The notes below the pieces were generated by a model. That model was not told the origin of the DNA. It ran no database searches and saw only the letters and a program-made list of their open reading frames with translations. This document shows positions 37,438 to 59,903 of a DNA stretch of 64,000 nt, piece after piece (position 1 is the first letter of the stretch; each line of letters opens with the position of its first letter). The stretch is taken from positions 264,072 to 328,071 of the forward strand of contig NZ_OMPQ01000009.1 in assembly GCF_900313025.1 (NCBI RefSeq), written 5' to 3'. The translations under genes and the position numbers were made by a program. This stretch comes from Pseudophaeobacter sp. EL27. GTDB lineage: Bacteria; Pseudomonadota; Alphaproteobacteria; Rhodobacterales; Rhodobacteraceae.

Positions 37438-37677
37438 ATGGCTTCGGACAGACAGAATTTGCAGGATGCATTCCTCAATCACGTTCGCAAAACCAAGGTT
37501 CCAGTAACAATCTTCCTGATTAACGGGGTCAAGCTGCAGGGTGTGATCACCTGGTTTGACAATTTCTGTGTGCTGTTGCGCCGCGATGGTCAGTCCCAAC
37601 TGGTTTATAAACACGCGATTTCCACCATCATGCCGGCCCAGCCGATCAGCCTATATGAAGGCGAAGACGCCTCTTGA
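37438..37677 (+). CDS. hfq: RNA chaperone Hfq
   Basis: A 79-residue Sm-like protein that forms hexamers and joins small RNAs to their targets. The Sm1 region is [20 protein letters not shown] and the Sm2 motif is [12 protein letters not shown]. The C-terminal tail is short, as in Alphaproteobacteria. It is followed by hflX, whose ATG overlaps the hfq stop by one base, so the two are translated from one message. Confidence 0.98.
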
Positions 37678-56907: not shown

Positions 56908-58725
56908 TTAGTTCTCCTCATGCCACCAGACATCCGGCATGAAACCGGTGCGATCACCATAGATTGGCAGCGTCTGGGGAAACTTCAGCTCACGCGCATG
57001 GGCAATGCGACCCTTGTCAAAGGACCAGATGGGAATCACATAGCGACCGGCTGTCAGAACCCGATCCAAGGCGCGGGTTGCTGCGACAAAATCCTCAGGC
57101 GCCTTGACGCTCAGCATGGTGTCGATCATCGCATCCACCGCTGGTGAGGCGACGCCCATGAGATTGCGGCTGCCGGGCTGTTCAGCCCCGGCAGAACCCC
57201 AATACAGCTTTTGTTCGTTGCCTGGGCTCAGCGAGAGTTCACGGCGGACCCGGGTGAGATCAAAATCAAAACTGTTCTGACGTCCCACATATTGCGCATT
57301 GTCGACGGCCTCAGGTGTCAGGGCAATGCCTAGGCGTTCAAGGGCCCGGGCATAGATCTCTACCACGGTCTTCATTTCGCTGTCGCCCTGGCGCAGCAAG
57401 ACGTTCAGGGCGATCTTGGTGCCCTTTGCATCGCGCAAAGCCCCATCCTGCACCGTCAGCCCGGCCTCCTCCAGCAGCGCCACTGCTTTTCGCAGGTTCT
57501 TGCGATTGCGTTTGGTCCCATCGCTTTGCGGCAATTCATACCCTTCGAGCGTGCCTGGCAGCAAATCATCAGCAAAGGGGGTGAGGTATTGCGCAACTTG
57601 ACCAGTGGCCGCACCGGGGCGCAATCCAAGATGTGAATTGGAGAAGTAAGAGCTGATACGCGGTTGAGCGCTGCCAGTTATGGTCTCGTTGATGAATTCA
57701 AAGTTGAAAGCCAGCAGCAGGGCTTCGCGCACACGCCAATCATCCAGCGGAGCACGGCGGGTATTGATTGCGAGCCCGGTCATCCCCGAGGGACGCTTGT
57801 GGGGGATCTCGCTTTTGACAATCCGCCCTTCTGTAACGGCGGAAAACCCATAGGCACTGGCCCATTTGTCAGCGTTGAATTCCCGGTAACTGCTCAGCTC
57901 ACCCGCCTTGAAGGCCTCGAACAGAACAGTTTGGTCGCCAAAGAAATCAATTCGCAGCTCATCAAAATTCTGCGTTCCAACGCGAAAGGGTAAATCCTTG
58001 CCCCAATAATCGGGATTGCGTTTTAGGGTAATCTGGCGTCCGGCCTCAAAATCCGCGACCACATAGGCGCCGGTTCCAATTGGCGCTTCTGTCAGACCAG
58101 AGGCGGCAAAATCTTTGCCCTGCCATTGTGATTTTTGCAAAATCGGTCGCAGGCCTGCAATCAGAGCGAGTTCTCGATCAGGGGTGTTGAACGTGATGCG
58201 CAGGCTCAAAGGGCCGGTCTGGCGGATCTCTGAAATTTTGTTCCAAAAGCCGCGATAGCGGAGATGTCCCTGGGTGCCGAGCATCTCGTAGGACCAGATC
58301 ACATCTTCAATGGTGACCGGGCTGCCATCGGAGAAACGCGCCTCGGGTCGGAGGCTGAATTCGACCCAGGATCGGTCCTCGGGCACTTCAACTGATTCGG
58401 CCAACAGCCCGTAAAGAGTGAAAGCTTCGTCCCAGGACCGCCCCATCAGGCTCTCATATCCCCAGAATCTGAGCTGCCACGGAGGGGTGCCTTTTTGGGC
58501 AAATGGATTAAGGGTATCAAAACCGCCGGTATTTCCTACCACCACTTTCCCACCCTTCGGAGCATTCGGGTTTACGTAGGGTAGGGATACAAAATCATGT
58601 GGTAGAGCGGGGTCACCATACATAGCTATGCCATGTGATGATTCTGCGACTGCAAGATCTGTGCTGCAAAACAGCAGGATTCCAGAGGTTGCAACTTTGA
58701 GTTTTTGGAAAAAATCTGGCGTCAC
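56908..58725 (-). CDS. Extracellular solute-binding protein, family 5 (peptide ABC transporter)
   Basis: A 605-residue periplasmic protein resembling YejA-type binding proteins for oligopeptides or microcin-like compounds. A signal peptide of about 27 residues ends LAVAES. The family 5 signature is visible as RSWVEFSLRPEARFSDGSPVTIEDVIWSYEML. The other parts (KRNPDYWGKDLPFRVG, DDWRVREALLLAFNFEFINE) are typical. No permease or ATPase genes are adjacent, so it is an orphan here. A hairpin of limited strength (CGGATCTCT with AGAGATCCG) lies 28-55 bases after the stop. Confidence 0.9.
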   Translation of the reverse strand: MTPDFFQKLKVATSGILLFCSTDLAVAESSHGIAMYGDPALPHDFVSLPYVNPNAPKGGKVVVGNTGGFDTLNPFAQKGTPPWQLRFWGYESLMGRSWDEAFTLYGLLAESVEVPEDRSWVEFSLRPEARFSDGSPVTIEDVIWSYEMLGTQGHLRYRGFWNKISEIRQTGPLSLRITFNTPDRELALIAGLRPILQKSQWQGKDFAASGLTEAPIGTGAYVVADFEAGRQITLKRNPDYWGKDLPFRVGTQNFDELRIDFFGDQTVLFEAFKAGELSSYREFNADKWASAYGFSAVTEGRIVKSEIPHKRPSGMTGLAINTRRAPLDDWRVREALLLAFNFEFINETITGSAQPRISSYFSNSHLGLRPGAATGQVAQYLTPFADDLLPGTLEGYELPQSDGTKRNRKNLRKAVALLEEAGLTVQDGALRDAKGTKIALNVLLRQGDSEMKTVVEIYARALERLGIALTPEAVDNAQYVGRQNSFDFDLTRVRRELSLSPGNEQKLYWGSAGAEQPGSRNLMGVASPAVDAMIDTMLSVKAPEDFVAATRALDRVLTAGRYVIPIWSFDKGRIAHARELKFPQTLPIYGDRTGFMPDVWWHEEN

Positions 58726-58805
58726 TTTGGCAACAATCCCCTACAGCCCTTATTTTCTTGGCTCTATACCCCAGTGACCCCACATCGTCATTTAAAACTT
58801 TTAGC

Positions 58806-58834
58806 TTGGATGAAACGGGGAAATTGCTTATAAA
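58806..58834 (+). promoter_or_regulatory. Promoter of the candidate small RNA
   Basis: TTGGAT (58806-58811) and TATAAA (58829-58834) are separated by exactly 17 bases, a good match to housekeeping promoters. It would start transcription near 58841. Confidence 0.6.
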
Positions 58835-58840
58835 GGAGTC

Positions 58841-58916
58841 ACTGCTCGATAGGTTTCTTGCCTGTATGAAACCTGCCTCAATAACTTTACGCCCGCTTCG
58901 TGCGGGCGTTTTTTTT
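58841..58916 (+). ncRNA. Candidate trans-acting small RNA
   Basis: A free-standing unit of about 76 bases between two protein genes. A promoter lies directly upstream. The predicted RNA has a 7-bp stem (AGGTTTC at 58851-58857 with GAAACCT at 58868-58874, 10-base loop), a single-stranded linker of about 14 bases and a strong terminator stem with eight T residues. This build, especially the long U tail, resembles Hfq-binding small RNAs. No known family was recognised, and no credible reading frame explains the terminator. It could instead be a premature stop in a long bdhA leader, whose gene starts 213 bases later. Confidence 0.55.
58889..58916 (+). terminator. Strong orphan intrinsic terminator
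   Basis: ACGCCCGC and GCGGGCGT form a perfect 8-bp stem around a 5-base loop, followed by eight T residues. No protein gene on the plus strand ends upstream of it. Confidence 0.88.
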
Positions 58917-59129: not shown

Positions 59130-59903
59130 ATGACGCTCCAGGGAAAAACCGCTGTGATCACCGGATCAAACTCGGGCATTGGTCTTGGCATTGCGCGCGA
59201 ATTGGCGCGCGCTGGTGCGGATGTGGTGTTGAATTCCTTTACCAACCGCGACGAGGATCACGCGCTGGCTGCGCAGGTCGCAGCGGAGTTCGGGGTCACT
59301 GCCCGGTATATCCAGGCCGATATGTCCAAAGGTGCGGCCTGCCGTGGGTTGATCCAAGAGGCCGGGCGCTGTGATATCCTGGTGAACAATGCCGGCATCC
59401 AGCATGTAGCCCCGGTTGATGAATTCCCGGCAGAGACCTGGGATGCGATCCTGGCCATCAACCTCAGCTCTGCCTTTCATACCACGGCTGTGGCGCTGCC
59501 GATGATGCGGGCGGCAGGTTGGGGGCGGGTGGTGAATATCGCCTCTGCCCATGGGCTCACCGCGTCACCGTTCAAATCGGCCTATGTCGCGGCCAAGCAC
59601 GGGGTTGTTGGTCTGACAAAAACTGTTGCTCTGGAAACGGCAGAAGAACCGATCACCTGCAACGCCATCTGCCCCGGGTATGTGCTGACGCCACTGGTCG
59701 AGGCGCAGATTCCGGATACGATGGCAAAGTACAACATGTCGCGCGATGAGGTGATCAAGCAGGTGATGCTGGAGCGCCAGCCCTCGCGGGAGTTTGCCAC
59801 AGTTGAGCAGCTGGGCGGATCGACCGTCTTTTTCTGCTCAGATGCGGCAGCGCAGATCACCGGCACCACCCTGAGCGTTGATGGTGGCTGGACCGCGCTT
59901 TAA
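59130..59903 (+). CDS. bdhA: D-3-hydroxybutyrate dehydrogenase (SDR family)
   Basis: A 257-residue short-chain dehydrogenase that interconverts 3-hydroxybutyrate and acetoacetate, in polyhydroxybutyrate or ketone-body use. The NAD motif is TGSNSGIGLGIAREL, NNAG follows, and the catalytic Ser, Tyr and Lys lie in IASAHGLTASPFKSAYVAAKHG. ERQPSREFATVEQLG and the end TTLSVDGGWTAL are typical of BdhA. ATG 59130 has AAGGAAGGA ahead; a longer frame from 59067 is unlikely. It stands alone. Confidence 0.92.
   Translation: MTLQGKTAVITGSNSGIGLGIARELARAGADVVLNSFTNRDEDHALAAQVAAEFGVTARYIQADMSKGAACRGLIQEAGRCDILVNNAGIQHVAPVDEFPAETWDAILAINLSSAFHTTAVALPMMRAAGWGRVVNIASAHGLTASPFKSAYVAAKHGVVGLTKTVALETAEEPITCNAICPGYVLTPLVEAQIPDTMAKYNMSRDEVIKQVMLERQPSREFATVEQLGGSTVFFCSDAAAQITGTTLSVDGGWTAL

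Follow-up and report, generated by a model that had tools for sequence, protein, structure and literature searches.

A probable stsR gene in Pseudophaeobacter sp. EL27 and its predicted pairing sites in the dcw leader

Does the stretch between a solute-binding protein gene and bdhA in Pseudophaeobacter sp. EL27 form a gene of its own, and what would its RNA act on? The window analysed is the whole 64,000-nucleotide stretch of DNA, and positions are those of the window. An initial annotation, made from the letters, had proposed a free-standing small RNA (sRNA) of no known RNA family, with an attenuator in the bdhA leader as the alternative.

Promoter, terminator and predicted length

The locus and its neighbours are laid out as follows.

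About 37459-37647, plus strand: Hfq domain, within the same 64-kb window
56908-58725, minus strand: gene for a family-5 solute-binding protein, the upstream neighbour of the sRNA
58795-58834, plus strand: sRNA promoter, with the upstream element AAACTTTTAG, -35 CTTGGA and -10 TATAAA, in an RpoH-type layout
58842-58913, plus strand: sRNA, predicted 72 nt, with +1 at C58842 placed from the promoter spacing and the end in the U tract, possibly as far as 58916
58842-58848, plus strand: pairing region 1, CTGCTCG, the single-stranded 5' end, complement of CGAGCAG in the dcw leader
58851-58874, plus strand: stem-loop 1, 7 bp (8 with U58850-G58875) and a 10-nt loop
58860-58876, plus strand: pairing region 2, GCCTGTATGAAACCTGC, loop and 3' arm, complement of GCAGGTTTCATACAGGC in the dcw leader
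58889-58916, plus strand: intrinsic terminator, with an 8-bp stem, a TTCGT loop and a T tract
59130-59903, plus strand: bdhA (short-chain dehydrogenase), the downstream neighbour, with its start codon 213 nt past the T run

Several elements of the initial annotation can be read directly from the sequence: TTGGAT at 58806-58811, a 17-nt spacer and TATAAA at 58829-58834; a first stem formed by AGGTTTC (58851-58857) and GAAACCT (58868-58874) around the loop 58858-58867; and an upstream side where no plus-strand gene ends, the neighbour being the minus-strand solute-binding protein gene. That hfq lies in the window is borne out by the Hfq domain. The 8-bp terminator stem (58889-58896 with 58902-58909) is also present, but the eight T residues said to follow it do not all do so; the run 58909-58916 has eight T in total, of which T58909 closes the stem and seven lie beyond the hairpin.

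What kind of promoter is this? The position given for it stands, but the type appears to be RpoH-like rather than housekeeping. TTGGAT/TATAAA is absent from the sigma-70-like sites of the local consensus scan, and a sigma-70 reading was rejected, as that scan missed the site and the RpoH layout fits. Over 147 loci the TTG columns are conserved at 1.0/0.92/0.99 and the TAT columns at 0.99/1.0/0.99. With +1 at C58842, TTG (58806-58808) falls at -36 to -34 and an A at -12, and in a Rhodobacter sphaeroides study these positions are reported as important for RpoHI and RpoHII (PMC3441632). The RpoHI logo from the same source prefers T at -9, where the sRNA promoter has A. From the sequence, we infer transcription by an RpoH-type sigma factor. 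Just upstream of the -35, AAACTTTTAG (58795-58804) is strongly conserved in the 147 loci and is possibly an UP element or an activator site. The one exact occurrence in the genome of AAACTTTTAGCTTGGA, which combines this element with the -35, is at the sRNA locus.

Of 145 loci, 110 give a length of 72 nt from +1 to the fifth U (L019 and L110 were left out of this count). The 76-nt stretch from 58842 has a predicted folding energy of -25.4 kcal/mol (z = -4.63, equalled by none of 200 shuffles), and the 85-nt stretch from 58836 has z = -5.09, with none of 200 shuffles as good. The sRNA terminator ranks at the top of the local terminator scan. By itself this is weak evidence, because the number of terminator-like sites, 17 against a mean of 14.0 (sd 3.5) in shuffles, is near chance, and it is conservation that decides.

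Conservation and structure

A DNA search with a 146-base query, covering 36 genomes of the family and 24 of other families, found the element in all 36; in the other families there was no comparable match (best E 0.0035). "Family" here means the kinship group of the genome set, and the record titles among the matches listed are mostly Rhodobacteraceae. When 199 family genomes were drawn evenly, 197 gave one match each (E <= 1e-6), and nearly all genera sampled have the sRNA. Neither the DNA search nor the covariance model found the sRNA in G165 and G184, assemblies of 310 and 370 contigs. The dcw leader of G165 (G165:C250, L231) carries both sRNA pairing sites described below, site A with two edits, and an assembly gap is therefore the likely reason for the missing sRNA there.

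The 39-nt core, 58842-58880 (CTGCTCGATAGGTTTCTTGCCTGTATGAAACCTGCCTCA), is exact in 34 of the 36 first-search genomes and has one substitution in the other two. Loci L051-L167 were left out of this count because they had been fetched by an exact 43-mer match. Among the matches listed, Cereibacter flavus also has the exact core; NCBI today places Cereibacter in Paracoccaceae. Three weak family copies were examined: the core is exact in G094, with seven substitutions in G243 and six in G070. The G243 copy (L253) has its changes all at the 5' end, with loss of pairing region 1 and retention of region 2, and the G070 copy (L255) can be described as diverged. Also among the matches listed is a contig whose record title, Nocardioides marinus, names an actinobacterium (L104, genome G062); the dcw leader of this genome has both pairing sites, and the record is probably mislabelled or contaminated.

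A covariance model built from 25 sequences was applied to 241 class genomes; the match listing, which leaves out 213 genomes without a match, gives no count of the family genomes in the draw. There were eight matching genomes, and four belong to the family and score 104-106 bits. The remaining four, from outside the family, scored 24-29 bits and all are without the core; they have the look of chance matches.

Is the structure itself under selection? Covariation, proposed initially as a check, supports the terminator stem, where seven of the eight pairs have changed on both sides in 25 aligned sequences, but gives no support for the first stem: all seven of its pairs are invariant in the 25 sequences, and covariation is silent on it for this reason. 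The constancy of stem 1 points to sequence-specific contacts. In the whole-structure alignment 97.1% of cells are paired, against at most 50.4% in slid versions. Locus L240 (G035) was kept out of alignment A2. Rfam 15 has no family that reaches its gathering score anywhere in the window, and at a relaxed threshold the best match is a sub-threshold one of 25 bits.

Predicted pairing with the mraZ/dcw leader

In many relatives, the first DNA search showed a second place that matches a 16-18-nt piece of the core. The three such places that were read lie upstream of mraZ-rsmH, at the start of the dcw cluster, and there the mRNA strand of the leader carries the reverse complement of the sRNA. To what extent are these sites shared? 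A set of 41 leaders was assembled by anchoring on the MraZ motif, from 34 of the 36 first-search family genomes, six genomes behind named loci, and G165. G004, G033 and G184 (no MraZ match) and G066 (no usable leader) were left out. The leaders were fetched largely by similarity to the leader of this genome, which favours leaders that keep the sites, and the counts that follow are to be read with this in mind.

Site A (GCAGGTTTCATACAGGC, the complement of 58860-58876) occurs with at most two edits in 37 of the 41 leaders: 12 have none, 18 have one and seven have two, one of these last copies being cut at a contig end. G063 has three edits and G025 four. Site A was not found in two of the 41, the leader of G019 and that of G028, the latter cut to 87 nt. 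In 35 of the 41, site A is followed at 33-44 nt by site B (CGAGCAG, the complement of 58842-58848); the leaders of G012 and G015 have site A and no site B. A scan allowing substitutions only finds site A in 27 of the 41 leaders and, apart from the sRNA itself, nowhere in 1.94 million strand-bases of background, made up of the window and 117 sRNA-bearing loci rather than a whole genome.

The dcw leader of this genome is on another contig (G000:C2, about 435994-436263, L184) and has a perfect site B. Its site A is one base short, and thus the predicted duplex has one bulge. The same base is missing in 7 of the 11 leaders of the Pseudophaeobacter genus set, with the sRNA core unchanged. The Cereibacter flavus leader has both sites within two edits.

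Predicted duplex energies are lower than those of all 60 mononucleotide shuffles in 34 of the 41 leaders, including G012 and G019, where the best duplex is away from site A. In the other seven, that of this genome among them, the energy is not better than all 60. The complementarity, as read from sequence, is a stronger argument than the energies.

The initial annotation had singled out the loop 58858-58867 and the linker 58875-58888 for target prediction. The loop is part of the predicted pairing, but of the linker only the first two bases are included: pairing is predicted for 58860-58876 and, at the 5' end of the RNA, for 58842-58848. Just past pairing region 2, the constant CTCA at 58877-58880 does not pair with any fixed partner across the leader duplexes; its constancy suggests an Hfq contact or other shared targets. 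Other near-matches to the sRNA loop are present elsewhere in this genome.

How might the pairing work? A heat-shock or stress sigma factor of RpoH type would transcribe the 72-nt RNA, ending at its own terminator, and under such stress the RNA would base-pair to the dcw leader. If the findings in R. sphaeroides carry over, pairing would expose the leader to RNase E, dcw mRNA would fall, and division would slow in stress and stationary phase. For this RNA, transcription, Hfq binding, cleavage and the growth effect are steps that we infer.

A possible RNase E cut was placed by length, taking the 130-nt UpsM product as the 3' part. On C. flavus coordinates it comes 6 nt past site A; in the leader of this genome it lies between the two sites, 15 nt past site A. 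In predicted folds of 35 leaders, site A is on average 57% unpaired, and the 20 nt that follow it are 64% paired, largely to sequence upstream of site A. An exposed site A beside a paired flank agrees, in these models, with a hidden RNase E region. When both sites were blocked in nested folding, however, the flank did not open (fraction unpaired 0.36 free, 0.39 blocked and 0.38 in the control), and it was more open when blocked in 16 of the 35 leaders. The opening step is taken from the published work for this reason.

That the core is nearly constant (34 of 36 exact) would mean that partners read most of its bases, the leader twice and other shared targets as well. Our own reading of the duplex and leader-site data is a two-point clamp used throughout the family, where two sites separated by about 37 nt would be held by the 5' end and by the loop with its 3' arm, the RNase E target lying between or beside them. 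We would put the chances of this model as roughly even. If it is true, the whole family, marine roseobacters included, brakes division by one RNA.

Alternative readings and comparison with known RNAs

Could the element instead be an attenuator or leader of bdhA? In 115 of 148 loci a bdhA homologue does follow the sRNA on its own strand, and in the window the bdhA start codon comes 213 nt after the T run. A homologue of the solute-binding protein is found upstream in 139 of the 148. Where the sequence leaves room to look (117 loci), however, 17 loci keep the sRNA although no match to bdhA above 55% identity lies within 2.5 kb; it holds its place without depending on bdhA, which argues against an attenuator. 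Minimum-energy folds, not a thorough test, show no competing antiterminator, and the constant core spans both regions predicted to pair with the leader. The attenuator proposed as an alternative in the initial annotation is thus disfavoured, mainly on the loci where bdhA was not found, and we regard it as very improbable. Chance promoter-like and terminator-like matches without function would agree with the counts of such sites in the region, which are near shuffled expectation; conservation across the family and the covariation of the terminator stem leave this reading a negligible probability. The locus is very probably, as judged from its sequence and conservation, a free-standing gene that has a promoter and a terminator of its own and encodes a trans-acting sRNA.

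Which sRNA is it? In R. sphaeroides, published accounts describe StsR (RSs0827) as a 72-nt, RpoHI/HII-dependent RNA (PMC8307010). Its binding to UpsM and to the dcw 5' UTR is reported to promote cleavage by RNase E and to reduce dcw mRNAs (PMC8307010, PMC11354728); StsR also targets rpoE mRNA near the start codon (PMC8307010). UpsM (RSs0682) is described as the terminated dcw leader RNA, with a 130-nt product (PMC5089854). Size, promoter class, target and taxon agree with the RNA of this window, and from these it is very probably the ortholog of the published StsR, which is known here by description. We are confident that the feature is the stsR gene, whose 72-nt RNA, made under RpoH-type stress, would pair with the dcw leader, expose it to RNase E and slow division. 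A different, unnamed Hfq-type sRNA that shares the target and sigma factor of StsR and is not its ortholog is an unlikely alternative; it draws on the comparison having been made with a description of StsR rather than its sequence. It sits poorly with the finding of one such RNA per genome (197 of 199 at E <= 1e-6), with the exact core of Cereibacter flavus, a congener of R. sphaeroides, among the matches listed, and with the 72-nt length and the complementary sites in the UpsM leader, the target that gave StsR its name. The claim of a free-standing small RNA thus stands in kind, on sequence and conservation, but not as an unknown family; "no known RNA family" is right for Rfam and does not fit the published StsR, whose length, promoter type and target match.

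What is new is an annotated member and a family-wide picture with target sites, not a new kind of RNA. A hairpin that lacked annotation is now probably a regulator with a name and a specific target. The results also suggest that a stress-to-cell-division circuit studied in one purple bacterium is common to its family, marine roseobacters included. As Rfam 15 has no match at curated scores, a family entry could come from model R1, and target sites given base by base make compensatory-mutation testing straightforward.

A search on RSP_0826-0828 gave nothing useful for placing RSs0827, the available part of a Ruegeria pomeroyi sRNA paper has no mention of this RNA, and a search combining StsR, conservation, Rhodobacteraceae and sRNA returned no paper, the 2021 NAR paper on StsR itself falling outside it.

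Among known systems, RyhB, suhB/mmgR and other Rfam sRNAs are weakly alike in their hairpin-plus-terminator layout, at 25 bits or less and each under its gathering score. Intergenic 134 of Paracoccus denitrificans (PMC5107571) is 84 nt, similar in size to the sRNA, and its conservation is reported for R. sphaeroides, Ruegeria, Phaeobacter and Leisingera; the likeness is one of description, not of sequence. By its number it probably lies on chromosome 2, and the Paracoccus copies of the sRNA are here on plasmid-labelled records. There are four of these (L238 and hits H1-H4), of 1.46-2.24 Mb, and in the one record checked (L238) the sRNA lies between the same two neighbours. UpsM is a target partner rather than the sRNA; this genome has a matching mraZ leader, which contains a strong hairpin as well as both pairing sites, although its site A is without one base. 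With StsR the comparison, also by description and not letter by letter, extends to a length of about 72 nt, a promoter of RpoH-type layout, an intrinsic terminator and a single copy. The RNA of about 72 nt with its terminator is a prediction from sequence, and the pairing with UpsM and the dcw leader is seen as complementary sites, in 37 (A) and 35 (A and B) of 41 leaders. The two RNAs also have in common this complementarity to the dcw 5' leader/UpsM, and they come from bacteria of the same family in the broad sense.
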